Origin: a virus
IMG/VR virus record: IMGVR_UViG_3300037584_000957
Coordinates: 1 to 27,347 of that record
Length of the DNA stretch: 27,347 nt
Strand: one strand, 5' to 3'
Both the position numbers and the translations under genes were made by a program. The notes below the pieces were generated by a model. The model saw only the letters and a program-made list of their open reading frames with translations, did no database searches and was not told the origin of the DNA. Shown here piece by piece: positions 7,701 through 25,475 of the stretch. How positions within the stretch are numbered: position 1 is the first letter of the stretch; each line of letters opens with the position of its first letter.

Positions 7701-10700
7701 CTTCAAAGATTCTACGCACATCATCGGGCCTACCTGATGCAGCCAGCAGAGGGCCATATCTAAACTCAGGTGCGGGCGCTAGTATCTCTTGTATGCGTCT
7801 AAACGCCTTACCTCTAGCACTGCGGTCAAACCTCTGAATACCCAAAAAGTCCGATAGTATCTGTAGCAGATTCTCCCAAAAGGTTAGTTGCTTACCCTTG
7901 GGCGATATTTTCGCTAGGTCGTTTTGGAACTTAGCGTTGGTAAATGCTTCTGCTACAAACTCTTTTAAGTTGGTTGCTCCATAGGCATCCCCAAGCTGTT
8001 CTTTCACTTCGTCGTAGAGTCTTTGTAGCTTCTTTGTGTTTGGGTGTGACTTGTTCTCCAGCACGTTATCTGTGGCCGCGTGTGTCATCTCATGCAGCAG
8101 AATGCCGACAGAGGTGCCAGATTCTTCGTCTAGTAGTATCTCGTTTGTTTTTGGATTAAACGCACCGTCTAAGGGTACGACTTCCCCCGTAACTGGGCTT
8201 TTGCCCATGATAGAACGGCTAGGCCGCACGCTGATCTTAGTAGTAAACGTGTAGTTTGCTAGCGTTCTAGCTATCTTCTTAGTGGTCGGATCGTCTACAG
8301 TCTCAGCTATCTCCAGCAGAGTACGCCGCAGTTCGCCTTTCTTAGCTGCACGCAGTGCTGCGTCAGGTATGGGTGCGTCTATTGCGTTGTATGCAATGTT
8401 GCTAGCCCCAAGCAAGTTGTCTTGGTCGTTTATGGCTTGCTCATCTCGGGCAGCTTCTACGGCCTGCTTTTGAGTAAGTCCTTCCTTTTTCTTATCAGCG
8501 ACAAGTTTCGTAAACTCTGTGTTACGTGCAGCTCGTTCCTCCTTAGATAAATCATTTAAGGTAACTGCTTCTGTAGTTTCTGCTTCGACTTCGGTTTCTG
8601 GCGCTTGTTGCGTCCTTGCTGCAACTCTTTCTCTACTCTTTCTTTCTAACTCTTCATTTCTAGCAGCCCGCTCACGTTCTCCCTGTTGCTTAGACGCCTC
8701 AGTTGCTCTTGTATTTACAGCTTTTATTTTTTCTTGAAACTGCCTTGTTAGCTCTTCTGTCTTCGCTGCTATTTCTCGCTTACGAGCCTCTTTAGACGAT
8801 ACGGACTTACGAACCCGTTTTTTCATCGCGGTAAGATCTTTTGAGTATTGCTCTCTTATCTTTTTCTTTTCTTTTGCGGCTTCAACTATTATCGGGCCAG
8901 CAAGTTCTGCTGACTGCCGTTCTAACTCCGCAAGAGTTTCTGCATCTACAGGAGGTCTAGCAGGGGGCTTCCTTACTGTAGGTGCAGTGGTAACTTCTTC
9001 TGCAACAGGTGCAGCGGCAGTCTCTTCTACAACAGGAAAAAACCCCTCATCGTCTGCAGTGGTAGCTTCTTCTGTCGGTTTAGCTTTCGCTGCAATCTTC
9101 TTTCTTGTTCGCTGTATCAGCGTAGGGGCGGCTACTTCTTCTGTAACACGGGGTCTTCTACCTGTGGGAGTAACAAGTTCTAGCTGCGCTTCTGGTGTGC
9201 CTTTTAAGAACCTGTTTATAGCGGATTTTGCTTTTCCAGAAGTGCTTCTTCTAGCAGCGTATTTGGTAAGTATGTCCTGCTGCTCAGTTTCTCGTAAGTC
9301 CTTATCTAGTAGTTTTTGTCGCACCGGGTCTTTCGCCGGGATAGATAAACTATTCAGAGCCTCTTCTGTAGCGACCACTGGATCTGGCGCAGTTTCAACG
9401 TCCGCAGACTCGGTAGCGGTGAGCCTCGCCTCTTGCCGTGCTTTAGCTAATTCAGTTGGGAACAAATCAGGCTGGTCTTCTGCGGCTATTGCTGCACGTT
9501 GCTGCCCTAGCCGTGCCTCATCTGACACAGGCTCTTCCGTAATTCGTTGTTCTCTATCTCGACGGTTAATACGATCTAGTACTTCTTCTCTAGTAAGCGC
9601 CTGTCCCTCTGGGGTAAGTGCTAGAGTTTCACCCGCAACAGTATCTGCTTCTGGTGCAAGTAATCTTTGCAGTTGTGGGCCAACCGTGCTTTCTGGTTCT
9701 AACCCCGGTATCACCATTTGGTCAGGAGATACTTCCTCTCGGACAGGTGCTTCAGGTTCTTCTAAAGATCTTTCATACAGTGCACGTTCTTCTGGAGGAA
9801 GTTTCTGCACGCGCTTTGCTATTGACTCTAGCCGACTTTCTTTCTGTTTGTCGGTAAGCTCTGCAAAGGGCTTCTTGTACCCGCCCTCTACCTTGGCTCG
9901 AATCTCGTCAATGTTTAGCTCTGGTGCTTTGGGCACGCCTAGTAAGTCTAGCTGTGTGGGTTCTTCTGGCCTAAACTCAAGCAGCCCTGCAATCTCAGGA
10001 TCGTCAGACTCTTTCTGCGCTGCTTCTCCAATAGTCACCCCACGTTTTCTAGGAGCAAATAAGTCTATAAATCCTTGGATTATTGCCCCAGCGGTGCCGC
10101 CAAGTGCTGCTTCTTCCGCAGTGCCAGCAAAGGTTTCTGCTGCTGCGTTATATTCTTGCTCTGTTAAGTTCTGCAGTATGTTAGATCCAGCCTCTTGCAG
10201 AGCTTCTGCACTACCCGTTACACCGGCACTTTGAATACGCTCACCAAATGTTTCTATTTTTTCTGGGGGTATTTTTTCTAGTAACTTATTAAGAGCTGGT
10301 AAATCAGCAAATTTAACCGCTCGCGCTACAGGTATTATTTCTAATAATCCTGCTGCAATAACACGCGGATCATTTATTGCCCTTTCTCGTTCTTCTTCAG
10401 TAGCACCAGCGGCCCTTGCTCGTTCACTAGCCTCGCCCCTTTGCGCAGCAAGACCTAAAGCACCTACACCTGCTGCAACGGCAGCGCCGGGAGCACCTAC
10501 TAGAGCACCAGCAACAGGCAATGCAAAAAACGCACCCGCAGACCCTAGTGCTTGACCTACTTGATAGCTAATAGAGTCAGGATCACCACCTTCTGGGCGT
10601 ATAGCTGCAATACCGGCTTTAATTTTTTCACGGGCAGCAAGTTCAGCTTCTTCCTCTAATAAAGTGGCCCCACCAAGCAATGCGATTTCGCCCGTGCCAA

Positions 10701-10896
10701 CAGCACCTGCGCCGATTCCAGAAGTAATGTTCTCGACTACGCCAGCTTCTTCGCGTGGAGCAAGAGCACGTAGCATTGCTATGTCTCTTTTTATGTCTTC
10801 TTCGTAGTCTTTGAGGGCTGCTACTGCTCTAGCATCCCCTGCAGCTTGGGCATTCCTAATCGCCGTTTGTACCTGCTCTAAAGAATGAGTTTGCAT
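4702..10896 (-). CDS. Giant virion/ejection protein (large polyvalent type) with HExxH metalloprotease motif
   Basis: A 2064-aa protein, last gene of the late operon, at ATG 10896 overlapping the previous stop by one base. Residues ~105-150 are hydrophobic and Gly/Ala-rich. Residues ~155-275 form a helical module resembling one in the 1819-aa protein. Residues ~350-830 are low complexity, rich in Glu, Ala, Lys, Arg and Pro. Then comes HEMTH (935-939) followed by EFVAEAFTN (979-987), the pattern of a zinc metallopeptidase with a Glu third ligand (candidates Glu979 or Glu983). The second half (~1050-2064) is helical, and GFNASSALVNLSQIP near 1490 recalls large polyvalent protein-associated domains of phage. 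Size, place and composition suggest an internal virion protein injected with the DNA, with peptidase activity inferred. I see no transglycosylase motif. Confidence 0.75.
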   Translation of the reverse strand: MQTHSLEQVQTAIRNAQAAGDARAVAALKDYEEDIKRDIAMLRALAPREEAGVVENITSGIGAGAVGTGEIALLGGATLLEEEAELAAREKIKAGIAAIRPEGGDPDSISYQVGQALGSAGAFFALPVAGALVGAPGAAVAAGVGALGLAAQRGEASERARAAGATEEERERAINDPRVIAAGLLEIIPVARAVKFADLPALNKLLEKIPPEKIETFGERIQSAGVTGSAEALQEAGSNILQNLTEQEYNAAAETFAGTAEEAALGGTAGAIIQGFIDLFAPRKRGVTIGEAAQKESDDPEIAGLLEFRPEEPTQLDLLGVPKAPELNIDEIRAKVEGGYKKPFAELTDKQKESRLESIAKRVQKLPPEERALYERSLEEPEAPVREEVSPDQMVIPGLEPESTVGPQLQRLLAPEADTVAGETLALTPEGQALTREEVLDRINRRDREQRITEEPVSDEARLGQQRAAIAAEDQPDLFPTELAKARQEARLTATESADVETAPDPVVATEEALNSLSIPAKDPVRQKLLDKDLRETEQQDILTKYAARRSTSGKAKSAINRFLKGTPEAQLELVTPTGRRPRVTEEVAAPTLIQRTRKKIAAKAKPTEEATTADDEGFFPVVEETAAAPVAEEVTTAPTVRKPPARPPVDAETLAELERQSAELAGPIIVEAAKEKKKIREQYSKDLTAMKKRVRKSVSSKEARKREIAAKTEELTRQFQEKIKAVNTRATEASKQQGERERAARNEELERKSRERVAARTQQAPETEVEAETTEAVTLNDLSKEERAARNTEFTKLVADKKKEGLTQKQAVEAARDEQAINDQDNLLGASNIAYNAIDAPIPDAALRAAKKGELRRTLLEIAETVDDPTTKKIARTLANYTFTTKISVRPSRSIMGKSPVTGEVVPLDGAFNPKTNEILLDEESGTSVGILLHEMTHAATDNVLENKSHPNTKKLQRLYDEVKEQLGDAYGATNLKEFVAEAFTNAKFQNDLAKISPKGKQLTFWENLLQILSDFLGIQRFDRSARGKAFRRIQEILAPAPEFRYGPLLAASGRPDDVRRIFEEIKGQKAGFRTAEGRATARKKLSKEINALLTDPQVGTKKYLTKIFGFLPNGSIQDIAEARSIPNAKRILDAIETQRGRLTEAEQVTRQTLEPVFRWASKASQETMKTFNNLVYESTINEVDPNLTPAEAKKKYGDQTVEGTSQRKVDKYNELRTLFQSAEMGPDGRRAYEELRGFYRDQYNALIDSLRGRLDDLPVGETTRTNLKNELLAKLLENTGKEPYFPLTRSGSYWLAVRQKEGDKSNAAVFAFNTPGERLAAMESYEKQGFEVDSWDNSKSSSYRNPPPGSFVSDVLKILDLTDKNVDPTIKEQITRLFIEELPESSFAKALIKRKNTEGYDMDAVDAARTKAFDLARQTERIKNSNAISRELDQMLEQVEAQGLGRDSARDAQLIEELRSRAQFAIQPTVEGYPKHLNRLAFIYTIGFNASSALVNLSQIPLFALPMLSGKYGAKQATNAVKNSTLLFQGAPMNKASRTLYGDIRTPDSIKQKLAEDGLYGTLQDMSLKSLDNYYTFTRDPNSGDLLFSVREDLELPKDKITELEELAPLIQLASRRGHLNSSFLADTLSIDGAGRKMSRYDAMTNASALMFHQAELMNRQVTMVTAYKLELDKLTNGDPSKATAEQRKEAADKALHETQLINGGATLETGPRLAREGVMRVALMYKNYGIQMYYAMGKTGYEAVKVYADSYRKDLESKGMAKSAIDALVKTAKSEAFKQLAGVHLSALLLAGVQGLPLYGAVSALYDGFTDDYEEDFDTFVRSSLNNEAIYRGIPTELLGIDVSERIKLTDLLVEANRFASDPSPAETFMHYVGGPAWSVLSRAIGGAEKMVKAETGRDLVRGFEDLLPGAVRNVYQGAIRYPMEGGIRNRRGDYIYDDMSAGELAVKILGFPPAEYTRSEAEKRAVKNIETAATRERGRLLNSYYVATRFGEFDEKRRLRRKMNEFNASDAVRINPKLRIDSKTIERSLESHKRTTKAKMYNGVTLSKGAQDLVDDVGFF

Positions 10897-12764
10897 TACT
10901 GCTGTAGGTACTGACCCATAAGCTCAACCCGCTGTCGCTGTTTAGCTAAAGCGGCTCTTTGCGAACTAACATCTCCCCCCAGTTCTTCTATACGGCGTAA
11001 TAAATCCTCTTCTCTTTCAAATATACCAGTGGCTTGCAAGATAAAGCCCTTAGTTATACCTGCTCTATTTACTGCGTCTTCTACATCACCACCCATTGTC
11101 TGCGCTTGATCTATCAATTGGGTTATTACTGGTGAGAGTAGTTCATCGCGGCGTTCTACTTCTTTCTGTAGTAGTTCCTGCATATCTTCTAACGCGGCTC
11201 CGCGCAGTTCAGCAGACGCTATCGCACGGTCAGTTTCTTGCCCCAGCAAATCTAGCTTCGTCTTGATGTTTTGTACGTCTGCATCAAGCACACGGTTTGC
11301 TTGCTGTTGAGCATCAGAAATATCACCTTCAGAAGCTCTAGACATGATGTTTGAGTACGCTTGCTTTTCTGCTGACAGCACTTGTTCTGCTTTATCTGCA
11401 CTGTCAATGCCTTTCGCTAACACAGTTTGCTCAATATCTAGAAGCTCGTTCTCTATACCAAACTCATCTTTAAGGTTTTGTCGTTGCTGTGCACGTTGCT
11501 GAGACAACTTACCCATATACCCTGCAGCGAAGCCTCCCGGCCCACCACGTTGAGCGGAACCTATTGTGCCAGCTATAAACGCTTCAAATGGATCGCGTTC
11601 TGCAAGTTGCTCTTGCTGTCTACGCAGCCTGTTTATCTGGCTTTGCTTCCTAGTTTGCATCCCTGCAAGACCCATCTCGTCTTTAACTTCAGCTATTCTA
11701 GCTTTTCGCACTGCATCTGGGTCTCTAGCAGCTCGTTTATCTAAGCCTATGTCAGTTAAAATACCCTTCGCAGCATCTTGCCTAGTGGTGCCTATATCTA
11801 GTTTCGGTGTTGTGACTTCAAGCTCGTCAAATAACTTATCTTTGTCAATAGTGCCAACGCCCGGAATGGTGCCTGTTAAGTCATCAGAATCATCGTCGTC
11901 ATCGCTACTATCGACTAGTGGTTTTACTCCCGGTACTGTTGTTTTTTTATCCTCTTGCGTTAGCGCACCTAGTCCTAACCCTGCAGCCCCTCTGCCCGCA
12001 GCTATGGTGCCCGGTAAGGGTGCTCTGCTAAGTGGTGCCCCGAATGGCACTACTTCTCTGGGGCCAACCTCCATGAGTTGTTTCCCCGGCTCCACTGGGC
12101 CATCTTCTGTTTGTCGTTTACGTTCTGCTGCTCCACGCTTCATTCTAGTAACTGAAGGAGCAGTGTCCTGTTTGCGGAGTCTTTCGGTTATTTTTCCTAT
12201 CTTTGGGAGTATTCTTCCCGCAAGACCGGCAATGCGTGCGCCACCAGCAACAAGCCCAAGCCCCGGAACAAACATTAGTCCTGTGGCAAGAGCCTCTAAG
12301 ACTTCAGGGTTCTCTCGCACATAGTCAATAAAACCCTTATCTAGCTGTTCTTCTGCAACTACTACGTTTTGTCCGTCTACCATCTCGCCAGACTGAAACC
12401 CAACAATGCCGCCTTGGGCCATACCCATCCGCTTTTGGCGTTGCATGGCTTCTTTTCGACGCTGCCCAAGAACGCCACCTACTTGTTCGGTGACCTTTCC
12501 AAGATTACGTCCCTGTTCTTGCTTGATAAGCCCTAGAACTTGTTGCTCTCGTTGTTGTGCAATAGTCTGAGGGTTCTGTTGCATCTTTAACTGTATGTCG
12601 CGTGCCGCAGCTTCTTTCTCTGTTTTTAGCTGTTGCAGTGCTAACAGGTCAGTAAGCTGCTTATTCTGCTGATATCGCTGTTGCAGTGCTTGCGGATTGC
12701 CCTGATATGCGTCTTTTTTACGCTGTATCATCTCCACGATGCCTTGAGAGGAATTAGTTATCAT
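10896..12764 (-). CDS. Putative internal virion protein, 622 aa, coiled-coil rich
   Basis: ATG 12764 has AGGAGG about 6 nt upstream, inside the end of the preceding gene, and its first base is the last base of that gene's stop. Residues 1-112 are Gln/Lys/Arg-rich helix. At 115-120 is MAQGGI, a short motif also found in neighbouring genes, followed by GFQSGEMVDG. Residues ~157-185 are hydrophobic (TGLMFVPGLGLVAGGARIAG) and could enter a membrane. An acidic run (SSDDDDDSDD) sits mid-protein. The remaining ~320 residues are charged coiled coil. Proteins of this build occur beside other internal-core proteins in marine podovirus-like contigs. A role in DNA ejection is inferred from position and composition; there is no enzymatic motif. 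Confidence 0.65.
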   Translation of the reverse strand: MITNSSQGIVEMIQRKKDAYQGNPQALQQRYQQNKQLTDLLALQQLKTEKEAAARDIQLKMQQNPQTIAQQREQQVLGLIKQEQGRNLGKVTEQVGGVLGQRRKEAMQRQKRMGMAQGGIVGFQSGEMVDGQNVVVAEEQLDKGFIDYVRENPEVLEALATGLMFVPGLGLVAGGARIAGLAGRILPKIGKITERLRKQDTAPSVTRMKRGAAERKRQTEDGPVEPGKQLMEVGPREVVPFGAPLSRAPLPGTIAAGRGAAGLGLGALTQEDKKTTVPGVKPLVDSSDDDDDSDDLTGTIPGVGTIDKDKLFDELEVTTPKLDIGTTRQDAAKGILTDIGLDKRAARDPDAVRKARIAEVKDEMGLAGMQTRKQSQINRLRRQQEQLAERDPFEAFIAGTIGSAQRGGPGGFAAGYMGKLSQQRAQQRQNLKDEFGIENELLDIEQTVLAKGIDSADKAEQVLSAEKQAYSNIMSRASEGDISDAQQQANRVLDADVQNIKTKLDLLGQETDRAIASAELRGAALEDMQELLQKEVERRDELLSPVITQLIDQAQTMGGDVEDAVNRAGITKGFILQATGIFEREEDLLRRIEELGGDVSSQRAALAKQRQRVELMGQYLQQ

Positions 12765-13774
12765 TAGGTTCCTCCTCCCGTTCCTGTATAGAGGGCAACT
12801 ATTTCTTCAGCGGTCATGCCTGACGTGTCTATAGGATTGCCTTCAGAGTCATAGAACCCTCCAGTTTTTTTATCGTCTTTTTTGCCGCCCAAACCAAACA
12901 ATGATGCAATTAACGAAGACACATCACCTGCACTGCCTAACAACGCACTAAGACCACTAGGCTGAGTTACAGAGTAAGATCTTGCAGCAATCGGCAGTCC
13001 CTGCAGTAATGAACGTTGGTACTGCAACTGTTTGTATGGGAAATCTCGCTCTTCTTCAAACTGTGCTCTATCTGCTGCTATACCTTCAGCTTCTATATCT
13101 CTTTGTGTGCGTCCTGCACCTGCTTGTGCTGCTAATGCTTCAAGTCCAAACCGCCTAGCTGCATCAGTAGCTGTTTGTTGTCTTCCTTGTTCTAAATTAA
13201 ACTGGTCTCTAGCTTGTTGAAACGCTTGTGCATAACCTTTACCTGTTATGTCGGCTAAATTCCTGTTTAGCATGTCATCTCGCTCTAAATCAGCAAGAGC
13301 TTGACGAGAGCCACCAAAAGCACCAGCCCGAGTAAACCTACCCGATTCCGCTTGCCTACTTATTTCAGCTTGCCTACGTGCCTCTGCTAGTTGTGGTTGT
13401 AGCACCGCCGATAGATAGGGGTTCATGTACTGGTTAACATTAGTGCCCCCTGCGGTGGGAGCATCACCAGTTGCGGCAGGAGCATCAGTAGCACTAAAAG
13501 TGCCGGGGGTAAAAGACATCTGTTCGGTGGTAGGTATAACAAGATTACCTAAACCTGCAAAAGCGGTATCTTGTAAGGCTGAAGTTCCAGCAGTAAGTGG
13601 CCCTGTATAGGCTTCGTAGGGTTGGTCTGCTAAAGCGCGACCTTTACCCAAAAAGTCAGTTACATATTCTCCAGCAAACTCGGCTAACGCACCTTGATAG
13701 CCAGTTTGTTGTCCTACTGACGGATCTGTGTCAACGTCAACACCACCACCCGTTTGATATCTTAATATACTCAT
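12764..13774 (-). CDS. Putative virion structural/ejection protein, 336 aa (GAFGGSRQA type)
   Basis: ATG 13774 overlaps the upstream TGA in an ATGA. The N-terminal part is Gly/Thr/Ala-rich with TGYQG at 24-28. Residues ~118-250 are a long Gln/Ala/Arg helix carrying GAFGGSRQALADLE (151-164) and DITGKGYAQAFQQARDQFN (about 175-193), a pattern I recognise from unnamed structural proteins next to ejection proteins in marine phages. Around residues 275-295 is a moderately hydrophobic segment ending in LFGLGGKK. The C-terminus is a small acidic tail ending in Gly/Thr. No catalytic residues are visible. A likely component of the tail or internal core; the precise role is unknown. Confidence 0.65.
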   Translation of the reverse strand: MSILRYQTGGGVDVDTDPSVGQQTGYQGALAEFAGEYVTDFLGKGRALADQPYEAYTGPLTAGTSALQDTAFAGLGNLVIPTTEQMSFTPGTFSATDAPAATGDAPTAGGTNVNQYMNPYLSAVLQPQLAEARRQAEISRQAESGRFTRAGAFGGSRQALADLERDDMLNRNLADITGKGYAQAFQQARDQFNLEQGRQQTATDAARRFGLEALAAQAGAGRTQRDIEAEGIAADRAQFEEERDFPYKQLQYQRSLLQGLPIAARSYSVTQPSGLSALLGSAGDVSSLIASLFGLGGKKDDKKTGGFYDSEGNPIDTSGMTAEEIVALYTGTGGGT

Positions 13775-14466
13775 GCTGGTAGCATCCTCATGGGGTCTAC
13801 TTCTTTACCCTGTTTTTCGTTACCTGTACGTTCTTTGCGTACTCGACTCATCATCTCGTGTAAAACTCTTGCTCCTGCATCTGAGTTGCCATTACCTAAA
13901 TGACTCACTACGTCCGCAGGGATAACAAACTCACCGTCACTTAATCTTGCTTCTTGCCCATTATCAATTCGTGCAGGGACTTTATCAGCCATACCGTCAG
14001 TAGAGCCGTCTAAATATCTACCTTTACTAAGAGCTAAAATGCCACCTGCTGCCATACCCGTACCACCTTGCAAAGCTGCTATACCTTCTGCTTGTTCTTT
14101 GGCTTTAGCACGGGCTTCTGCAATCGACATTGGAGTGGTTTCTGGCTGCTTTGCGTAGATAGTGTCGCTAAAATAACGACGACCTGCAGAGCCGGGGCGA
14201 CGGTTTGGGTCAATACCGTCTTCAGGTATGGGCTGTCTTTCTGGCATAGCGACTCGTTCTCGTACAGCCGCATATCGTGGTATTTCGCCTTGATAGCCAG
14301 TAGATTGCATTTGGGGGTTGAAGAAGTCTGGAGCAAACTTGTTACCTAAAGCAGATATACCAAGCCCAGCAAGTATAGAACCGGCGTCACTACTAAGAAA
14401 ATCTGAAAAGCTAGCGTCTTCTTTACCTGCAAACTTATCTACTAGATCGCTAAAAAATGTGCTCAT
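13771..14466 (-). CDS. Conserved marine-phage structural protein, 231 aa (DGEFVIPADVVSHLG type)
   Basis: ATG 14466 overlaps the stop of the 1819-aa gene by one base. Residues 25-42 are weakly hydrophobic. TGYQG is at 56-60, matching residues 24-28 of the next protein. MAAGGI is at 138-143. The C-terminal third contains DGSTDGMADKVPARIDNGQEA, then LSDGEFVIPADVVSHLGNGNSDAG (177-198) and a basic helix ending the protein. I know this C-terminal block as a well conserved part of virion-associated proteins in marine podovirus-like genomes, where it also stands among internal-core genes. Its function has not been established to my knowledge. Confidence 0.68.
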   Translation of the reverse strand: MSTFFSDLVDKFAGKEDASFSDFLSSDAGSILAGLGISALGNKFAPDFFNPQMQSTGYQGEIPRYAAVRERVAMPERQPIPEDGIDPNRRPGSAGRRYFSDTIYAKQPETTPMSIAEARAKAKEQAEGIAALQGGTGMAAGGILALSKGRYLDGSTDGMADKVPARIDNGQEARLSDGEFVIPADVVSHLGNGNSDAGARVLHEMMSRVRKERTGNEKQGKEVDPMRMLPA

Positions 14467-17400
14467 TAATCTTTCCCAAGTAAACGCAATAATTCTTCAT
14501 TGCTGTTTATAATACCGCCTTGTGCTCTACGCCTTGGAGGTTGCGCAAACGGATTAGTTGCAGCATACCCTCCGTATGGCCCCGCCGCAGCGCGTTCCTG
14601 TTGTGGGGTACCAAAAATACTGCTGAAATCATAAGCTGGTTCTAGTTGCGCAAGCGGCGACTGCCCTACATCTATTTTACCTTCTTCAGAAGCTAAGAGC
14701 ATACTCAAAAAATCCCTTGCAGACGACTCCTTTGCACGTTGTTCGGCTTGCTGCTCCATTTGCATTTGTTGCTGCATTTGTTGCTGCATTTGTTGCTCTA
14801 ACTGTTGTTGCAATTCCTGTTGTTGCTGTAGCTGTGAAGCAAATAAACCTGTAGCAGCAAAGCGATTATCGGCAAGGGGATCTAGTGTTTGGTCACCTGC
14901 CAGCACATCCTGCAACAAGTTAAGATCCGTAGCATCAATTACACCATCGCCCGTGACATCATAAGCTAGCTGTTCTTCGGTAAACGTAAACGTAGACGGG
15001 TCAGCTAGTGCTTCCTGTTGTGCAATTACATCTGTAACAAAATCAATATCTGCGGCTGTTACATCTTGAGCAGGCTTACCTAATACTGTGGCTATAGCAT
15101 CTATGTTGCCGCTAAGTTCTGCCTCTGTTTCGCCCAGTGCCGCAAGCAGGTCATCTTCTGTCTGACCTATGGTGTCGAGAAGCTCGTCTTTTGTTATGCC
15201 TAACTGATCGGCGAGATCGTCTACAGCATTTTTTGTTTCATCTATTTCCGCGTATAACCCTGTCGCGGCTGCATCATCAGTAGCGGCGGTGCCTACACGG
15301 TCAGATAAATCTCCAAGATCGACGCCTAAACCTTCTAATTTTGCAAATAGCCCAGTTGCTTCAACGTCATCGCTAGAAGGACTGCCTATGGCGTCTACTA
15401 AAGCAGCGTTAGATACCCCTAAATCAGCTATATCTGCAAATATACCTGTTGCTGCTTCGGTTTCAGTAGCAGGGTTACCTATAACAGACTCTAAATTAGC
15501 TACCCCCGCATCTACTGCAGCGCCTATTACATTGTTTAGAGCGGTCTGTAAGTCCGTGCCGCTATCTAGTTGTGCGGCTAGTTCTGATGCTACCGCTTCA
15601 GCAACTTCATTAACGTCTACGGTTTCCGTTATGTTGGTAACGTAGGTATTGCTGACGTTATAGGTGTTACTAATGTTCGTTACATTAGTGGTTGTGCCCG
15701 TGTCATCTGTGGTGGTTGTCCCCCCGTCATCCGTAGTAGTTGTAGTAGTTGTAGTCGTGTCCGTAGATGGTTCTTCTCCCATATCTGGCTCAGTTGCAGG
15801 CAAACCTCCTACATCTGTATCTGTGTCTGTATCTGTATCTGTATCTGTATCTGTATCTGTATCTGTATCTGTATCTGTGCCTGCATCTGCGCCTATTAGG
15901 GGGAACAGCTCTGGGCTATTAGCGATTACCTCTGTTAAGCGGTCAGCAGAAAAGTTAAGCCCCCTCCATGTGTACGAGCCGTCAGCATTACGAGTTATGC
16001 CCTCATATACCGTGGATAAGTCAACATCAGCACCAGCATCCACACCAACATCTACACCAGCATCTACACCAGCATCCACACCAACATCTACACCAGCATC
16101 TACACCAGCATCTACACCAGCATCTACACCAACATCTACACCAGCATCTACACCAGCATCTACAGCATCATCAGCGCCAGTATCAGTACCAGCATCTACA
16201 GCATCATCAGCACCAGCATCCACACCAGCATCCACACCAGCATCCACACCAGCATCTACACCAGCATCCACACCAGCATCCACACCAGCATCCACACCAG
16301 CATCTACACCAGCGTCTACACCAGCGTCTACGGTTTCGTCGGTATCCGCCGCTTGTTCAGCAAGCTGCAATAGGTACTCAGCATTAAAATCTACTGCACT
16401 TTGTTTGACGGTAGACTCTGGCAACGTGCCATCTTCACCTACTTCGCCAAGCACTTCTTCTATAGTTTGTCCGGTTATCAATCCTTCTGGGTAGCCTGCA
16501 TCTATCAGTAACTGGCGTGCTTCTTCGGGGGTGGTGTATAGCTCATCAAAACTATCTTGTATATTTTCAAGGACTTTATCTGCATCTACAGTAGTTTGTT
16601 TTACATACTGTTGTGCTTGTTCTTCGGTTAACGTAAGTCCTTCTGCTGCCGCAGCGTTCATAACCTCTTGTGCGTCTACAAACCGGCTGTCTATGTATTC
16701 AGCTACCTGCGTGCCTAGTTCAGCATCGGGTTTGTTGCCTACGTATTCGTCTATAACTTTGTCAGACGCATTAAACTCAGGGTTAGCTGTCTCAAACGCT
16801 TGTTTGACTTCAGATGCGGTTGTGTAGTCTGCATCAAATGCGTCGTTTAATAAGCTAGTTTGCACCCCACCGAAGCCATCACTGGTTATGCCAAACTCGG
16901 CAAGCCTAGCCTCTGCTTCTGCGGCGTCTATTAAACCTGCTTTTGCGTCCGCAATCGTTTTCTGCACCTGTGCAGAGGTAGTTTTTGCTACGTTAGCAAC
17001 TACATCAGATATTTCTGCACCGGCTGTAAGTCCCCCGCCTACGTTTGTGCCGATTATACTGGCGAGTATGGCGCTTTCTGCTACGTTAGCCGCTATAGGT
17101 CTGTCAGGATCAATTTCACGTATTGATATATCCGTAACATATTGCACCGCGCCTTCTTCTAGACCCTCAAGTACACCTTCTCGCACCGCCCCGCTAGCAG
17201 TTCGGTCTATCCTAGAAAGGAACTCGTCCATTGCGCTTATGGTAGTTTTATTTACTTTAGGCCCAAACAGAGATTCTGCTAGCTGTTTACCGCCCAACAC
17301 TTCGGATGCAGTAAGCGCCATAACAGCACCCATGGCTCCTGATTTCTGTGCTACACCTGTAGCAAACTCTGCGGCCTCTAATAAATCTGCATCGCTAAGT

Positions 17401-19925
17401 TCTTGTGCTGGCAGTCCTGTTGCTTCTGCTATACGTGCATACTCTTCTTGACGTTTTCTTATAAACGTAGCGTGTGCATCTTCATACGCCCCGCCAGCCG
17501 AACCACCCGCTGCTTCTGCTACGTCACTTAGTAACGTGGCATCCATAGCAATCTTAGATGCGTCCATGTTATCGGCTATTTTCTTAGCCGCATCATCTCC
17601 AAACTTTTTAAGTGCTGCAGAAGACAGTTTTGCTCCCGCAAATGCTGCCCCACCCACAGCAAACGGCACGATCTCCTGCACAAATTCTTTGGCTACATAG
17701 TCAACGAGAAACTCTGTAGGGTTATCTACAGCCGCACCAAATATGGCTTTTCCTACTTCAAAGAAGCTGTCTTGCCAATCTGCATCTTTTGGTAAGTTGT
17801 CTTTAGCGGCTTGTATGCGGTCACTAATGTCTTTTAGGCCAGCTTGATAGTCCTCTGGCTTACTATCTCCAGCCATCTTAGATATTGCATCTAGGGTCTT
17901 AGCAATTTCGGTATTGCTTGGGTCATACCCAACTAGCGTTGCTAGCCCTAAAAACGACTGCGCTATCTCTGCACCTGCTTCTAACGCAACAGCAGTGCCA
18001 ACAATCCATTTATCATCCCCAGTTTCGGAGGAAGCCTCTACTGCGTCTTTTGCTATCTGATACAAGAAAGACGCTTCTGTTGGGTCTTCTCCTGCGGCTA
18101 CTTTTTCACGTATTACCGCGTTTTCATGCTCTCTACCTACAGATGCACTGCTTTTACCTAGCGCGTCTATATACGCTGCTTGGTCGGTTCCTGCTCTTAG
18201 CTCTTGTAACTTGGTTAAATCAGATTCTTGCACCTTCCGTGAAAAGTCTTCACTAGGATCATAGCCTAGCTCTTCCATAATCCTAAGATGTGAGTAGCCA
18301 TCGTTTTGTAGATCGTTGTAGATCTCTACAGCTTCATCAAAGAATGTAGCTAAATCATTGCCTGTAGGTGAAGATACACCTTCTTCTTGAGCTATCTGTT
18401 GTGCGAGTAAGAAACAACCTTCTATAACATCGCCACTTTCACCAATTACATCACTAAGTGCACCGTTACCAATAAGTGTCGCTGCGGTTGACAGCATTCC
18501 TTCAGCACTGGTGGGATCGACACCCAACCCAGCTATTTTAGCGGTTATTTTCAACCAATCAGGCATGATGTCGCCTAGTGTTTGACCACTTACGGTTACC
18601 ATCCCTGTTGTTTGAGAGGGTAAAGGTATTAACTCTACCGCCCCTGCTGCAATGCCTGCCGTAGCCGCTGCGGTAAGTATTTGAGATAAGTCCTTACCCT
18701 GTAGTGCAGCTATACCCCCTGATACGATTGCTTTTGCGGCAGCAGTACCAGCAAGAGTTGTTCCTCCAGCGGCGGCAGTAGCAGTAGACCCAGACAAAAG
18801 CGACGACATAGGCCCAGCTAAAGCACCGGCGGTTAGGTATCCAAGCCCCGCAAGAGCAATAGCTTTTAAGCCGTTTTGTACACTCTTATCTTTTACCTCT
18901 ACAGTTCTAATCGCACCCGTAGAGAACGGGTCAAACAAGTATGTAGAGCCATCATCAGTCTGCCGATATGGGTTAACGCCGTATTTGAAGTACAACGACT
19001 GCAACATCGGGTCGCGTGTATGTGCTTCTTCTAAGGCTTTCTGATAGTTCATCCCCTCCGTTGCCATAAGATATGGCACTTGCTCCGAAAGTATCGGACG
19101 AACTAAAGACTGAAAAGCTTCAATATCCGATGCAGAGCTAGCAGAGTGTTTTTTGTAAGAGTCTTTGAACCCGTTAGCGGCTAGATCAACTTCTACAGGT
19201 GATATTTCATAGCCGTAATAACTACTCAACGCACTGGCTAATTCTTCCGTAGTAGTTGCGTCGGCTATGGTTGCGTAGGCTTCTATTACAGATTGCTCAT
19301 CAGCACTACTACGCAGCCTTGATAGATACTCAGGGGCACCTTCCACAGTGGACAAATACAATTCTGGAGTTAGCCCCCCAGAAAATAACCCTGCAAACGC
19401 ACCTGATTCTCGCCCACCCTCGCCGCCAATTATGTCAGCATAGGGGTCAAAACCAACAGCTCCAAAGGCTTGCTTAAACCCAAGGTTGTAGTAGTCGTCA
19501 GTCTCGTCTATGTCACCTTCGTAAGTAACGCCTTTGGATAGTATATTTTTGTATTTCTGTACTGCCTTATTAAGCAAACCTTCCACGGCTATAGCGGGGT
19601 TAGCAGGTGGGGGCGTAGTTGCAGGGGTAGTCGTAGTTGTCGTTGCTTCGTCTTCTATTCGTTCTATAGCAGCCAAAATATCTGCTTTAGACGGCTCACT
19701 TTCTGCAAAAGAAGGCAACTCTGGTTCTGGTTCTGGTTCTGGCTTGGGCTTGGGCTTAGGCTTGGGCTTGGGCTTGGGCTTGGGCTTGGGCTTGGGCTTG
19801 GGCTTGGGCTTGGGCTTGGGCTTAGGCTTAGGTGTAGGGTATTGTTCTTCTAGCCGCTCTATAGCCGCTAAAATGTCCTCTTCTGATGGTTCAAAAGCAA
19901 AGTTAGGTGGATTAAACCGACGCAT
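14466..19925 (-). CDS. Giant repeat-rich virion protein, 1819 aa, with PK, VDAG and TD tracts and a dockerin-like EF-hand
   Basis: ATG 19925 overlaps the previous stop (TAATG) with GGAGG about 7 nt upstream. In order: a SxxDILAAIER motif (~14-24) repeated after a rigid (PK)15(PE)4 rod (32-69); a helical N-domain with a hydrophobic stretch (~360-415); a module resembling one in the 2064-aa protein (~820-970); about 26 VDAG-type units (1199-1302); a TD tract (1349-1371); a Thr/Asp stretch and an Asn/Val/Thr strand region (~1386-1435); three exact 31-aa repeats (1482-1574); a calcium-loop DVTGDGVIDATD (1656-1667); a Gln/Met-rich helix (~1697-1730); and RAQGGI near the C-terminus. The position among internal virion genes suggests an ejected or structural core protein. 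No enzyme motif is seen. Confidence 0.75.
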   Translation of the reverse strand: MRRFNPPNFAFEPSEEDILAAIERLEEQYPTPKPKPKPKPKPKPKPKPKPKPKPKPKPKPKPEPEPEPELPSFAESEPSKADILAAIERIEDEATTTTTTPATTPPPANPAIAVEGLLNKAVQKYKNILSKGVTYEGDIDETDDYYNLGFKQAFGAVGFDPYADIIGGEGGRESGAFAGLFSGGLTPELYLSTVEGAPEYLSRLRSSADEQSVIEAYATIADATTTEELASALSSYYGYEISPVEVDLAANGFKDSYKKHSASSASDIEAFQSLVRPILSEQVPYLMATEGMNYQKALEEAHTRDPMLQSLYFKYGVNPYRQTDDGSTYLFDPFSTGAIRTVEVKDKSVQNGLKAIALAGLGYLTAGALAGPMSSLLSGSTATAAAGGTTLAGTAAAKAIVSGGIAALQGKDLSQILTAAATAGIAAGAVELIPLPSQTTGMVTVSGQTLGDIMPDWLKITAKIAGLGVDPTSAEGMLSTAATLIGNGALSDVIGESGDVIEGCFLLAQQIAQEEGVSSPTGNDLATFFDEAVEIYNDLQNDGYSHLRIMEELGYDPSEDFSRKVQESDLTKLQELRAGTDQAAYIDALGKSSASVGREHENAVIREKVAAGEDPTEASFLYQIAKDAVEASSETGDDKWIVGTAVALEAGAEIAQSFLGLATLVGYDPSNTEIAKTLDAISKMAGDSKPEDYQAGLKDISDRIQAAKDNLPKDADWQDSFFEVGKAIFGAAVDNPTEFLVDYVAKEFVQEIVPFAVGGAAFAGAKLSSAALKKFGDDAAKKIADNMDASKIAMDATLLSDVAEAAGGSAGGAYEDAHATFIRKRQEEYARIAEATGLPAQELSDADLLEAAEFATGVAQKSGAMGAVMALTASEVLGGKQLAESLFGPKVNKTTISAMDEFLSRIDRTASGAVREGVLEGLEEGAVQYVTDISIREIDPDRPIAANVAESAILASIIGTNVGGGLTAGAEISDVVANVAKTTSAQVQKTIADAKAGLIDAAEAEARLAEFGITSDGFGGVQTSLLNDAFDADYTTASEVKQAFETANPEFNASDKVIDEYVGNKPDAELGTQVAEYIDSRFVDAQEVMNAAAAEGLTLTEEQAQQYVKQTTVDADKVLENIQDSFDELYTTPEEARQLLIDAGYPEGLITGQTIEEVLGEVGEDGTLPESTVKQSAVDFNAEYLLQLAEQAADTDETVDAGVDAGVDAGVDAGVDAGVDAGVDAGVDAGVDAGVDAGADDAVDAGTDTGADDAVDAGVDAGVDVGVDAGVDAGVDAGVDVGVDAGVDAGVDVGVDAGADVDLSTVYEGITRNADGSYTWRGLNFSADRLTEVIANSPELFPLIGADAGTDTDTDTDTDTDTDTDTDTDTDVGGLPATEPDMGEEPSTDTTTTTTTTTDDGGTTTTDDTGTTTNVTNISNTYNVSNTYVTNITETVDVNEVAEAVASELAAQLDSGTDLQTALNNVIGAAVDAGVANLESVIGNPATETEAATGIFADIADLGVSNAALVDAIGSPSSDDVEATGLFAKLEGLGVDLGDLSDRVGTAATDDAAATGLYAEIDETKNAVDDLADQLGITKDELLDTIGQTEDDLLAALGETEAELSGNIDAIATVLGKPAQDVTAADIDFVTDVIAQQEALADPSTFTFTEEQLAYDVTGDGVIDATDLNLLQDVLAGDQTLDPLADNRFAATGLFASQLQQQQELQQQLEQQMQQQMQQQMQMEQQAEQRAKESSARDFLSMLLASEEGKIDVGQSPLAQLEPAYDFSSIFGTPQQERAAAGPYGGYAATNPFAQPPRRRAQGGIINSNEELLRLLGKD
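14735..14838 (-). repeat. Gln/Met-rich coding repeat (QQMQQQMQ tract)
   Basis: An imperfect short tandem repeat of Gln and Met codons covering about residues 1697-1730 of the 1819-aa protein; on the + strand it reads as TTGTTGCTGCAT-like units. It probably forms a long polar helix or coiled coil. Low complexity makes it prone to replication slippage in multiples of three, which would keep the frame. Confidence 0.7.
14925..14960 (-). other. Dockerin/EF-hand-like calcium loop in the 1819-aa protein
   Basis: Residues 1656-1667 read DVTGDGVIDATD: acidic or Thr ligands at loop positions 1, 3, 5, 9 and 12 and Gly at 6. That fits a calcium-binding loop of the dockerin type, with Asp rather than Glu at position 12. 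Only one loop is present, whereas true dockerins carry two, so it may be a stand-alone calcium site that stabilises the virion protein. Confidence 0.6.
15204..15482 (-). repeat. Three tandem 31-residue repeats in the 1819-aa protein
   Basis: Three copies of exactly 31 codons (93 bp) begin at 15482, 15389 and 15296. The first two open with IGNP/IGSP and the third with VGTA. Shared positions include (E/D)ATG(I/L)(F/Y)A in the middle of all three, LGV in the first two, and Leu plus Asp near each end. They diverge in sequence while keeping exact length, so they are structural repeats rather than recent slippage products. Part of the motif (ATGLFA) recurs once more downstream, just after the calcium loop. 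Confidence 0.8.
15813..15880 (-). repeat. Thr-Asp dipeptide tract (hexanucleotide GTATCT repeat)
   Basis: About eleven near-perfect copies of a 6-bp unit (GTATCT on the + strand, with GTGTCT variants) encode alternating Thr and Asp. High DNA identity among units suggests recent expansion by slippage. The unit length is a multiple of three, so copy-number changes alter protein length without breaking the frame. Confidence 0.9.
16021..16331 (-). repeat. VDAG tetrapeptide array (12-bp minisatellite, about 26 units)
   Basis: A 12-bp unit (CCAGCATCTACA on the + strand, with C/T and A/G variants) is repeated about 26 times and encodes Val-Asp-Ala-Gly. Variants give VDVG, ADDA and TDTG units, and some variants recur in blocks (VDAG-VDAG-VDVG), implying expansion of multi-unit segments. 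It adds roughly one negative charge every four residues. It is not a CRISPR array: there are no unique spacers. Confidence 0.92.
19741..19832 (-). repeat. (Pro-Lys)15 tract (hexanucleotide GGGCTT repeat)
   Basis: Fifteen Lys codons alternate with Pro in a 6-bp repeat (GGGCTT on the + strand, with a few GGCTTA variants), followed by four Pro-Glu pairs towards 19721. Alternating Pro makes an extended, stiff, cationic rod, much like the EP/KP region with which TonB spans the periplasm. The likeness is compositional and does not imply homology. Confidence 0.92.
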
Positions 19926-20248
19926 TACGACACCTCCAGCAAGCTAGCTACTACGTGCAGTCTATCTGCCGTGGCTGCGGTGACTTTAACTATCTCGGAC
20001 TCTTCAATAACGAGTGGTGCAGTAAGCAGTTCTACTGTGGTATTCGCTCCTACTGCTTTAGTCTTAAATACACTAAATACCGCCGAAGCAGAATCGGTAA
20101 TGGTTACAGTAATTGTGTCAGCATTGCCTGAGTCCTCAGACACAAGAATAGACTTAATAATTGCTGTCGTAGCTGTTGGACATGTGTACAGCGTAGTCGC
20201 GGTAGTGGCAGTCAGATCCACCTTTGCGTTTTTGTACTGGTTAGCCAC
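19925..20248 (-). CDS. Small phage structural protein, Thr-rich beta fold
   Basis: A 107-aa protein. I chose GTG 20248 (MANQYKNAKVDL), which shares its first base with the preceding TAG, matching the junction style of the whole operon; an in-frame TTG at 20263 is possible but lacks a ribosome site. The protein is rich in Thr, Val and Ala with alternating strands (TTATTLYTCPT, TITVTITDSA, IVKVTAATADR), as in the small immunoglobulin-like beta-sandwich proteins that decorate phage heads or tails. I recognise the MANQYKN...TLYT opening from marine phage structural gene clusters. The exact location in the virion is unknown. Confidence 0.65.
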   Translation of the reverse strand: MANQYKNAKVDLTATTATTLYTCPTATTAIIKSILVSEDSGNADTITVTITDSASAVFSVFKTKAVGANTTVELLTAPLVIEESEIVKVTAATADRLHVVASLLEVS

Positions 20249-20442
20249 TAGCCTAAAAACCAAGCGGCAGCTTGTGCAGTAGGAGATACCGAAGCATCCC
20301 GTATACCTTTATCAAGCTGGTTAAAATAAAGACGTAGTGTGTTGTTTAGCTGGTTAAACATCCGCACGTCGTACTCATTTGAAGGATCTGGAAGAACAGG
20401 CGCTTTGAAATCTATGTCATAACGTGTTTTGTCTATAGCCAT
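20248..20442 (-). CDS. Small conserved phage protein, 64 aa, in structural operon
   Basis: ATG 20442 overlaps the previous stop by one base and has GGGAGG about 6 nt upstream, a good start. The 64-aa product has a central helix-like segment (DVRMFNQLNNTLRLYFNQLDKG) and ends in AAAWFLG. There is no membrane segment or catalytic motif. Small proteins with this FNQLNNTLRLYFNQLD pattern sit next to the 613-aa-type structural gene in related marine phage contigs that I recall, so it may be a tail or connector accessory, but the role is unknown. Confidence 0.65.
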   Translation of the reverse strand: MAIDKTRYDIDFKAPVLPDPSNEYDVRMFNQLNNTLRLYFNQLDKGIRDASVSPTAQAAAWFLG

Positions 20443-22283
20443 TAGCGCCTCCCATCAGGCCGCATTTCTAATCTAGGAGACCCTAACTGCCATTTCACTC
20501 CTAGATCACTTGATTCTATCTTTAATGCTAGCTGCCTGCCACGTACTCGCAAATCTAATCTAGAGGTGAAGGCTTCAATCGGTGCGGTTGCTGTTCTAGT
20601 TATAGAACCTGTGTTTGTACCACCTTCAGAAGCGGGCGAGTTTCGTCCAGACCCAGAGTTTTGTGCTGCAAACAATGACAATGTAGCACTAGGGCTATCT
20701 ACGGTAGACCCATCAAATGTTACATCTGGGTACACCTTCTGTATAAACGCAAATCTGTGGCCGTCATCTAAGTCAAACTGCGCTGAAGATATAAAAGAAT
20801 CTATGCCTGCAGCCGTGCCGGTCTCATTATCATCAATGCCATCTTCATGGTTTACGACATTGTTGTTATACGTAGCCGCCATAGGAAAGTCACGTATACC
20901 TGAATCAATCCAAGCAGTTCTGCCTAAATTGCCAAAATACCAGATGTTTTGCTCGTAGTTGTAAATGACATAACGATCTATGGTTGTAGCACCGCTAGAA
21001 CAGTAAAACCACCAAATCTCGCTAAACCCTTCATTTGTACCCGCAAATACTTGGTCGTACTGCTCTGTATTGAAGTCATTAAATACGTACCGCTTCAGTG
21101 TGCATGGTAGAGTTTGCACTCGCCCATCATACAAATAGAACCCGCCCACGCCCATCCAATAAGCTACACCGTTTGCATAGGCAACCGTATTCGGCGATGC
21201 AATAGACAAATTTTCTCCGACAGTCTGTGCTCCCCATACAGCAGGAGCGCCAACATACTGCAATGCATAAAGTGCGGAGTCAGTCCAAATAAGTATCTCT
21301 TGTCGGCCTTGGATGGCTGTTATTATTTCTGACCCTTTAGATAATCTAAGATCGCCTGCTTGGTTTGTAGAAGATGGTGTCCAATTGACCGCATTTTCTT
21401 GGTCTGACCAACGCAAAAGCATTGGGTCTAAGTCACTACTGCCAAGGGGAGTTGTGCCAAAACAGAACACGAAGCGGTTATCCGACACAAGTAGCGTGTT
21501 TACTTTAGTAGGCACATTAGAGGCACCGCTTTCACTAGACAGCAATACTCCGCGAGTAGTTAATGCATCTGTTGCATCCCAGAAAAACAAACTACCACCA
21601 CGAGCCGCAAATATAAGGTCTTCTCCAAAGTTAGATTGAGACCATAATCGAAGTGCATCTGTGCCTGTAACGCCCGTGCTCCACGCGCCAAGACCCCATC
21701 CAGCAGCACCCCAACCAACAAGTGCTTCTGCTACTGCAGGGCCAGAATTTATTTGGTACGTTGCAGTAACCGAACCGCCACCTGTGGCTGAAGAACTTGC
21801 GGCCTCACTAGCGGTTATGGTGTATGTGTTACCTGTGAGATATGTTATTTGGAACTCACCGTTTAGCGTCAATCCACCTACCGCAGAAGCGCCGCTAAAT
21901 GTAACAAAGTCATTATTTTTGTATCCAGCATTAGCGTCTGTAACTGTGACCGTGGTAGAACCACTTACGGTGGTAAAAGGGTCTGTAAGCGACACAGCAG
22001 CACGTATAGGAGTAATGTCGTAATACGTCCCACCCTGCTCTATGTAAAACTTTAGATTAGTACCCACACCAAGCAGCTTTTGACTGCCTAGCGTCACCCA
22101 AGAAAATAAAGACCTCGCAACACCAAGAAAAGAGTTAGTAGATATACGATTCCACCCACCTAGTTTTTCTGGCATTCCCCGTCTAAATCGTACTTTGTCG
22201 CAGTCGTACCAACCGCCCTCGCTTGTATAACGTGTGTTCTCTCTGTCTACCCCCGGTTTGAAGACCATTTTTTGTAGCGGCAT
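20442..22283 (-). CDS. Phage structural protein, possible tail/DNA-stabilisation (gp10-like) protein, 613 aa
   Basis: ATG 22283 overlaps the lysozyme stop by one base, with GGGGAG about 8 nt upstream. The opening VFKPGVDRENTRYTSEGGWYD and KVRFRRGMPEKLGGW are a signature I know from marine podovirus structural proteins. An inserted beta-sandwich (about residues 97-175, DPFTTVSG to TASEAASSS) separates it from a strand-rich body with repeated W-x-D/aromatic blocks that could be a beta-propeller, as in P22 gp10 and related tail/packaged-DNA stabilisation proteins. The C-terminus ends in a strand pair and RPDGRR. Virion role is likely; assignment as the DNA-stabilisation tail protein is inferred. 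Confidence 0.68.
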   Translation of the reverse strand: MPLQKMVFKPGVDRENTRYTSEGGWYDCDKVRFRRGMPEKLGGWNRISTNSFLGVARSLFSWVTLGSQKLLGVGTNLKFYIEQGGTYYDITPIRAAVSLTDPFTTVSGSTTVTVTDANAGYKNNDFVTFSGASAVGGLTLNGEFQITYLTGNTYTITASEAASSSATGGGSVTATYQINSGPAVAEALVGWGAAGWGLGAWSTGVTGTDALRLWSQSNFGEDLIFAARGGSLFFWDATDALTTRGVLLSSESGASNVPTKVNTLLVSDNRFVFCFGTTPLGSSDLDPMLLRWSDQENAVNWTPSSTNQAGDLRLSKGSEIITAIQGRQEILIWTDSALYALQYVGAPAVWGAQTVGENLSIASPNTVAYANGVAYWMGVGGFYLYDGRVQTLPCTLKRYVFNDFNTEQYDQVFAGTNEGFSEIWWFYCSSGATTIDRYVIYNYEQNIWYFGNLGRTAWIDSGIRDFPMAATYNNNVVNHEDGIDDNETGTAAGIDSFISSAQFDLDDGHRFAFIQKVYPDVTFDGSTVDSPSATLSLFAAQNSGSGRNSPASEGGTNTGSITRTATAPIEAFTSRLDLRVRGRQLALKIESSDLGVKWQLGSPRLEMRPDGRR

Positions 22284-24856: not shown

Positions 24857-25101
24857 TAGTGTTCCTTGAAGCCTTCGGGCAGACCTTGTGCAGTCTCAGG
24901 CTCTTCTACTGTCTGGACACTTTCGGCAATGCTTTGGGTATAGGCTTGCAGTAACACGTTACGCTCTGCGATCTGCTGTTGCAGTGCAGCGATTTCACGA
25001 CGGATCTCTGCGACTCTAGCAATGTGAGCCTGAGTCTCGACCTTCAGATCGCCAAAGTTGTACTCTTCGTCGTTGATTACGATTGTCTGTACTTCGCTCA
25101 T
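24856..25101 (-). CDS. Small coiled-coil phage protein, DUF6447-like
   Basis: An 81-aa protein. ATG 25101 (MSEVQTIVINDEEYNFGDL) shares its base with the upstream TAA and has AGGAG upstream; a GTG two codons earlier is possible but less likely. The opening short strand pair (TIVINDEEYNFGDLK) followed by one long helix rich in Ala, Glu, Gln and Arg (AEIRREIAALQQQIAERNVLLQAYTQS) matches the small phage proteins labelled DUF6447, as I remember them. The end is acidic. It sits beside the tail-fibre gene, so a fibre-related assembly role is possible; unverified. Confidence 0.68.
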   Translation of the reverse strand: MSEVQTIVINDEEYNFGDLKVETQAHIARVAEIRREIAALQQQIAERNVLLQAYTQSIAESVQTVEEPETAQGLPEGFKEH

Positions 25102-25463
25102 TACCACGGCACTCCTGTAGCTTGTGTTGCGGCACGATCAATCTGCGCTTGAACCTTTGCGGTACGTTCAGCTTCAATGCGAGCTTTATACTGGGCAGCG
25201 GTTTCGTCTTCGGGGCCGCCTGTGCTCGGGCCTTTGTTTTGATCGTAGATCCAGCCCAGCACATCGCTTTCTTTGAGATCCGCATAGGCAATGTAATCGC
25301 TGCTCGACGCATCGTAAGTGAAGCGAGCTTTACCGCCTTCTGTTGCAGTTTCGCCACCTTCGCCATCGCTTGCTGCGACTAGGCTCCAGTAAGCCAGAAT
25401 GACGCCACCATCAGCGTCAACGTGGGTCATATTGTTGACCGACCAAGTTGTGTTTATAGCCAT
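25101..25463 (-). CDS. Tail-fibre-adjacent conserved phage protein, 120 aa (DUF7936-like)
   Basis: ATG 25463 has AAGGAG 8 nt upstream and starts 12 nt after the tail-fibre stop. The opening MAINTTWSVNNMTHVDADGG and VILAYWSLVAASD is a pattern I know from marine cyanophage-type and related phages, downstream of tail-fibre genes; I believe it corresponds to DUF7936, unchecked. A beta-rich N-half is followed by DVLGWIYDQNKG and a C-terminal helix (QYKARIEAERTAKVQAQIDRAAT). Position suggests a fibre-associated or assembly protein. No enzymatic residues are seen. Confidence 0.7.
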   Translation of the reverse strand: MAINTTWSVNNMTHVDADGGVILAYWSLVAASDGEGGETATEGGKARFTYDASSSDYIAYADLKESDVLGWIYDQNKGPSTGGPEDETAAQYKARIEAERTAKVQAQIDRAATQATGVPW

Positions 25464-25475
25464 TTGCTATTCTCC

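Follow-up and report, generated by a model that had tools for sequence, protein, structure and literature searches.

The DNA analysed here, which we call the window, is a virus contig of 27,347 bases. On its minus strand, starting from an ATG at 19925, runs an open reading frame of 1819 aa, which we name BIG. Reading in the same direction, the gene order is a fibre-like protein of 623 aa, small genes, a holin, a T4-type lysozyme (PF00959), a 613-aa tail nozzle, p64, p112, BIG, p231, p336, p622 and p2064. TAATG overlaps couple BIG to both of its neighbours, and the order lysozyme-nozzle-p64-p112-BIG-p231-p336-p622-p2064 is the same in essentially all related loci that are long enough to show it. 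At 1455-1534 on the plus strand, between SSB-like and primase-helicase genes, lies a match to the int-alpA RNA (RF02996), with a score of 36.8 against a gathering score of 35.8.

Table 1. Features of BIG and of the neighbouring block in the window; aa positions refer to the BIG protein.
Feature	Position	Strand	Remarks
613-aa tail nozzle (P22 gp10/tubeB type, phrog_3287)	20442..22283	-	profile and PDB matches
112-aa protein p112 (phrog_1276)	19925..20263	-	homologue in Roseobacter phage CRP-902
BIG gene	14466..19925	-	TAATG stop-start overlap with preceding gene; GGAGG upstream of ATG
N-tail array (PK)15(PE)4	19719..19832	-	aa 32-69; near-twin L001 has 14 PK
Conserved, mostly alpha-helical core	16341..19580	-	aa 116-1195; no sequence relative in Pfam, PHROG or PDB
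Hydrophobic Gly/Ala-rich segments, possible membrane-inserting helices	18615..18872	-	aa 352-374 and 415-437
Three degenerate 48-aa repeats, consensus VDPRYTTAEEARDAFADLGYTPTDEEIAQFVGQ	16425..16838	-	aa 1030-1167; relatives have up to 12
VDAG array of 26 tetrapeptides	16020..16331	-	aa 1199-1302
(TD)11	15813..15878	-	aa 1350-1371
Thr/Asp-rich stretch with T9 run	15687..15767	-	aa 1387-1413
Three ~31-aa repeats	15198..15485	-	aa 1481-1576
Conserved GKPxxxVTxxDIDFV...AQQE segment and Dockerin_1-like Ca2+ loop DVTGDGVIDATD	14910..15062	-	loop aa 1656-1667
Gln/Met tract, predicted helix	14721..14831	-	aa 1699-1735
C-terminal motif RRRAQGGIINSNEELLRLLG	14466..14537	-	its AxGGI core also in p231 and p622
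231-aa protein p231, C-terminal DGEFVIPADVV domain	13771..14466	-	
336-aa protein p336, phrog_4287 'DNA ejection protein'	12764..13774	-	
622-aa protein p622, same block	10896..12764	-	
2064-aa p2064, DarB-like/PLxRFG-type large protein	4702..10896	-	contains HEMTH

An earlier note on this DNA, which gave no strand, had described the gene as built from at least six kinds of repeats, and every repeat that it listed is present. The runs comprise 15 PK, 4 PE and 11 TD units and 9 Thr, and the 26 positions of the VDAG array include 20 exact VDAG, 3 VDVG and 2 ADDA tetrapeptides. These runs are not due to chance, since in 2000 shuffles of the protein the longest runs were 2 for PK, 3 for TD and 1 for VDAG. 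At the DNA level, Tandem Repeats Finder reports arrays at 19741-19829 (6 bp, 96%), 16031-16331 (12 bp, 87%) and 15813-15889 (6 bp, 90%). Beyond the listed repeats, BIG also contains degenerate 48-aa helical repeats and a dockerin-type Ca2+ loop near the C-terminus. Open frames on the opposite strand (e.g. 15664-16494) were rejected as shadows of the low-complexity sequence: the minus-strand frame is the one in which more than 50 loci show homology.

The core, represented by 37 members, matched no family in Pfam or PHROG and had no credible match in the PDB by sequence. One core segment is weakly similar to the N-terminal part of a 2804-aa protein of the isolate MinM2, a homologue of p2064 (E 1e-4), and to the corresponding part of p2064 itself (hhalign p 0.0096, likewise weak). 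Structure prediction, which the earlier note had proposed, was run on the core and the C-terminus: the AlphaFold models are near all-helical, at low confidence (mean pLDDT 57.7 for the core and 55.5 for the C-terminus), and a comparison with PDB folds was empty at E<=0.001. Among viral folds, the best-matching ones belong to proteins of uncultured phages, large polyvalent proteins included.

The three 48-aa units of the window are weakly alike in direct comparison, and the repeat is supported by the family HMM; a possible fourth unit, with a weaker match, lies at aa 1558-1597, and relatives carry from 2 to 12 copies. The repeat gives weak EF-hand-like matches to the helix-linker-helix of troponin C and calmodulin (E 0.015; Foldseek E 0.45), convergent hints that we treat as a lead only. 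The Dockerin_1 model (PF00404) matches BIG with 23.4 bits against a Pfam gathering cut-off of 22.9, and it matches 20 of 24 relatives. As in dockerin type I, Asp is invariant at positions 1, 5, 9 and 12 of the loop. The match spans model positions 10-53 and, unlike dockerin type I with its two tandem F-hand Ca2+ loops, BIG has one intact loop, the first half of the match lacking the Asp ligands; a second loop was not found, no cohesin partner was matched among the scanned neighbour proteins, and there is no cellulosome context. Searches of the C-terminus against the PDB also returned an apolipoprotein-type helical-repeat match and one match in the dockerin region, which we put down to composition together with the dockerin loop. 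The whole-protein matches to phrog_332 and phrog_4785 fall on the Q-rich tract and the VDAG array and were dismissed as low-complexity.

The nozzle matches phrog_3287 at 8e-71 and PDB entry 9nwi at 3e-15 (6 chains); chain Y of 9nwi matches full-length LUZ24 gp56, which also matches chains deposited as 'nozzle'. In ejectosomal podoviruses the telltale arrangement is a tubeB gene with (candidate) ejectosomal genes behind it (PMC10386132), and here the tubeB/nozzle gene lies immediately upstream of the candidate ejection genes. In LUZ24, the products of the genes that come after the nozzle, gp49-53, carry annotations as virion or phage-particle proteins, and LUZ24-like modules form a major oceanic metagenomic group (PMC10386132). 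With this layout, the block that contains BIG is an ejectosome block of the LUZ24-like podovirus type. Tape-measure (PF10145) and sheath (PF04984) families were found in none of nine related contigs of 43-66 kb; the Pfam models of the P22 portal and the HK97-type capsid also had no match in nine relatives, which is uninformative. Besides a zinc-peptidase-like HEMTH motif (GILLHEMTHAATDN), the large p2064 has an N-terminal domain that is strongly conserved.

A short motif is common to BIG and two of its neighbours, at a fixed position in each. AxGGI(I/V) lies about 18 residues from the C-terminus of BIG and about 92 from that of p231; in p622 it falls within the N-terminal part. Among distinct relatives, AxGGI occurs in 54 of 69 BIG, 55 of 63 p231 and 52 of 53 p622 proteins, against 22.5, 6.2 and 8.4 after shuffling; the pattern was picked after the sequences had been seen, and these counts are descriptive. 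In p336, p2064, the nozzle and p112 it is not enriched. The distribution suggests that BIG, p231 and p622 share a partner or a processing step, and the presence of the motif in three neighbouring products supports counting BIG with the same assembly. AxGGI(I/L/V) is also found in the proteins P0002 and P0005 of the isolate DSL-LC04; the motif may be a shared docking or protease site.

Three scans of viral contigs yielded more than 100 loci related to BIG, all of them viral; some share a contig, and several of the contigs are about 60-65 kb long. Among 84,980 bacterial and archaeal genomes, 82 pattern matches included no BIG relative, and there is hence no link to a host or prophage. Searching 50,697 phage records, from which near-identical records may be left out, by tblastn with whole BIG, the core, the C-terminus and a divergent relative gave nothing. 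BIG evolves fast: its identity is 47-69% in loci where the nozzle stays above 90%. The cassette around it is kept in isolates, with homologues of p231, p336 and p2064 in MinM2, of p112, p231 and p336 in DSL-LC04, and of p64, p112 and p336 in HTVC023P. BIG itself was not detected in these three, the single match in MinM2 falling inside the 2804-aa protein, and the proteins at the gene position of BIG in DSL-LC04 and CRP-902 are not detectable homologues. Judged by detectable homology, then, BIG is an extra gene of its lineage within a conserved cassette and not a universal part of the ejectosome. One of the cassette proteins, the p231 homologue of DSL-LC04 (L046, 16132-18411; E 5e-9), bears the deposited name 'tail tape measure protein', yet its phage has a short-tail nozzle, and the label is probably wrong.

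The 46 complete distinct BIG proteins range from 995 to 3005 aa, and their N-tails and middle tracts differ in kind. The N-tail may be (PK)n(PE)n, (PT)n, a helix-like AKAEAE stretch of about 200 aa, or absent; the middle tract is built from VDAG, TD, EP, DPVV, PEPQ, VDPDP, VDDA or other units, or is absent. EP arrays of 14, 17.5, 21.5 and 39 units occur, and a C-terminal helical repeat of about 55-65 aa, which many relatives have at the site of the 31-aa repeats, is present in roughly 0 to 10 copies. Whole tracts are replaced at one point: L024 has a PEPQ tract where L034 has DPVV, between flanks that are 96-100% identical in most windows of the comparison. In one sub-clade (L022, L025, L038) the EP array is followed by thrombospondin-3-like DTDGDGVxDDSDAFPDDPDE repeats, so that this place holds another Ca2+-binding repeat type.

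The earlier note had argued that slippage would alter the length of the protein without breaking its frame, and had proposed comparing repeat numbers across related contigs, constant counts being one outcome that would tell against it. The counts vary. Over 4,094 bp of BIG, the window differs from its near-twin L001 by 4 SNPs and a single 6-bp deletion in the PK array (PK15 vs PK14). In stretches at least 97% identical we find nine indels, all multiples of 3, of which eight fall in the low-complexity arrays that make up 6.6% of the columns; the ninth, of 195 bp, lies in a helical-repeat region. One event was counted twice (L025/L026 vs L038), and the distinct count is 7 of 8 (binomial p ~4e-8, for pairs that are not fully independent). 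Several contigs (L001, L004, L030, L032, L035, L037) stop inside tracts, as expected where arrays are hard to assemble; the copy numbers given for the longer arrays are therefore provisional, and short-read assemblies do not give a reliable count for the 312-bp VDAG array. At about 90 bp, the PK array is short enough to trust, and two contigs that were assembled separately agree on the length of the VDAG array.

Exchange is also seen outside the arrays. For the middle of the core there are two or more strongly divergent versions, 25-55% identical (L022 8001-11852, L025 5882-9733, L038 1698-5765), and between L025 and L038 the divergent middle is flanked by ends that are 97-100% identical; the alignments indicate that the core middle is swapped by recombination. 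Comparing the window with L001 over 9.6 kb, 75 of 87 differing columns lie at 25000-25477, by the fibre-like gene, which suggests a recombination boundary there.

With a net charge of -203, BIG carries -11 per 100 aa, compared with -1 to -4 for the rest of the block, nozzle through p2064. All 45 of 45 distinct complete relatives are acidic, from -5.2 to -15.1 per 100 aa with a mean of -10.6. The earlier note had pictured a bipolar molecule, with a cationic N-terminal rod and an anionic middle. The PK15 stretch does contribute +15, but acidic flanks offset it and the 115-aa N-tail as a whole has a net charge of just +1; in relatives, the N-tail is absent, neutral or a long helix, with a charge from -17 to +1 where present. 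With so small a net charge, on a segment so variable, we dropped the bipolar model. The middle tract, where present, is always strongly acidic despite its unrelated units. What is conserved in BIG is acidity, and neither polarity nor a given repeat.

We consider it probable, though by no means secure, that BIG belongs to the ejectosome as an accessory protein whose (acidic) spacer linkers are exchangeable. The evidence for placing it in the ejectosome is the coupled operon with its kept order, the nozzle, the 'DNA ejection protein' p336 and the DarB-like p2064, the motif common to p231 and p622, a core predicted to be helical with hydrophobic segments, the viral fold matches to large polyvalent and other phage proteins, the weak likeness of a core segment to the MinM2 protein and p2064, and the lack of tape-measure or sheath families in nine related contigs. 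That BIG is a virion protein, and perhaps an ejection protein, was the reading of the earlier note; gene context speaks for it, with the BIG gene coupled into one operon, the tail nozzle on one side and ejection-type proteins on the other, and sequence or profile similarity to a known ejection protein is confined to the weak partial MinM2/p2064 matches. Against the ejectosome assignment stand the absence of BIG from syntenic isolates that have the nozzle and p231/p336 (MinM2, and HTVC023P with none detectable), the low AlphaFold confidence and the lack of a PDB fold, and a charge far more acidic than that of the neighbours. Known ejection proteins (T7 gp14/15/16, P22 gp7/16/20, LUZ24 gp49-53) resemble BIG in forming a block directly after the nozzle, in being large and, as predicted for BIG, helical, and in diverging fast with very variable size, e.g. 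431-982 aa for gp15-like and 609-1337 aa for gp16-like proteins (PMC8954989). BIG differs from them in having no detectable sequence similarity, in being an extra gene absent from LUZ24 as well as from MinM2 and HTVC023P, and in its size range, extreme acidity, tandem arrays and dockerin-type loop.

As an ejectosome component, BIG would be a late product of the coupled operon that also encodes the nozzle and ejection proteins, and would most likely be carried in the head and leave it either together with the DNA or before it. The working parts of BIG would be the conserved helical core with the hydrophobic segments and the conserved C-terminus with its helical repeats, Ca2+-loop module, Q-helix and GGI motif, which may meet membranes and other ejectosome proteins. 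The N-tail and the acidic middle tract would be exchangeable spacers, free in length and chemistry as long as the frame stays open and the whole protein strongly acidic. The spacer role is suggested by the PK indel in the near-twin, the tract swap between conserved flanks, the range of N-tail types and the indels in the arrays. That BIG serves as a spacer across the periplasm, as the earlier note had suggested, is plausible by analogy with TonB and TolA, whose linkers reach across it and tolerate deletions until too short (PMC12204202, PMC10771500). The N-tails of the BIG family resemble these linkers in their charged Pro-X arrays, (PK)n(PE)n, in their long AKAEAE helices and in their tolerance of length changes; however, BIG lacks the architecture of TM anchor, linker and CTD, and the likeness is one of low-complexity chemistry and not of homology.

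A different account of the variable repeats makes BIG an external appendage of the tail, or a protein related to adhesion, that varies under host-surface selection as tail fibres do. BIG is indeed of low complexity, recombining and variable in length; the hypervariable repeats of marine phage tail fibres, which are host-recognition proteins, or of metaviromic islands likewise form a phage-specific stretch between conserved ends, and the tail fibres of pelagiphages under-recruit (PMC3909814). Dockerin modules, moreover, usually mediate protein docking, and the fibre-like protein of the window is also acidic, at -6.1 per 100 aa. However, internal virion proteins are among the under-recruiting marine phage genes too (PMC3909814), BIG is predicted to be almost all alpha-helical with hydrophobic segments and matches no beta-fibre or lectin family, and, unlike fibres, it is encoded in the ejection block, away from the fibre gene at 25476-27347. 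We therefore regard an appendage as unlikely.

The acidity itself could mean that BIG is an injected early-phase effector of the polyvalent type, or a DNA mimic whose acidic tract occupies nucleases or nucleoid proteins and so protects the incoming DNA, a role that the earlier note had raised. The net charge and the acidity of every complete relative fit this, as does the DarB-like neighbour p2064, since DarB-like and other large polyvalent phage proteins are argued to be injected and are, like BIG, very large and encoded beside virion genes (PMC5512222). Mimicry as the core function is nevertheless disfavoured, because several family members (L054, L055, L057, L059) lack the acidic tandem tract, and the VDAG, TD, EP and DPVV tracts conserve no spacing of charges. 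Nor did Pfam and PHROG searches of BIG find an enzymatic domain: the methylase, helicase, peptidase or ART domains of polyvalent proteins, of which two or more disparate catalytic domains would be typical, were not detected. On balance this role is quite unlikely.

It is doubtful enough to be called improbable that BIG is instead a morphogenesis factor, i.e., an internal scaffold, chaperone or ruler for which ejection is not required. Like tape-measure proteins, BIG is (by prediction) helical, repeat-rich and variable in length, a homologue of its neighbour p231 bears the tape-measure annotation mentioned above, and a few relatives match phrog_1538 or phrog_332, the phrog_332 match of the window lying on the Q-rich tract. 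Yet the nozzle implies a short tail, the nine large related contigs hold no tape-measure or sheath family, and the length of a ruler should be constant among near-identical phages, where we see PK14 and PK15 and EP arrays of 14 to 39 units. Least credible of the alternatives is that the repeats are neutral slippage junk, merely tolerated in a dispensable linker: the arrays do differ in unit, length and presence, and departures within the VDAG array show no clear constraint (16 synonymous vs 15 non-synonymous), but the tract sits at one fixed place between well-conserved flanks, is strongly acidic wherever it occurs although its units are unrelated, and belongs to a protein whose overall acidity is kept in every relative.

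A more daring extension of the ejectosome assignment, which we offer as a long shot, makes BIG a calcium-responsive polyanionic ejection device. The protein would lie extended and non-sticking beside the DNA in the head and then leave through the nozzle, where Ca2+, at the millimolar concentrations of seawater or periplasm, would bind the dockerin loop and the EF-like repeats as well as the acidic tract, and in some relatives also the thrombospondin-3-like DxDGDGxxD repeats. Binding might stiffen or fold the emerging chain and pull or lock BIG across the envelope, and the exchangeable repeat linkers would set the reach for different hosts.

The BIG family is a large one, its core lacking a Pfam or PHROG match and a relative among the roughly 50,700 phage records searched, and it sits inside the DNA-injection block of widespread uncultured short-tailed phages of a marine type. 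Since its linkers change both by steps of single repeat units and by whole replacement between near-identical neighbours, they amount to a natural length-variation experiment on a protein proposed to span the envelope. This makes the question of reach versus charge in DNA entry testable with sequences already in hand and, if BIG is in the virion, it would be a new type of podoviral ejectosome component.
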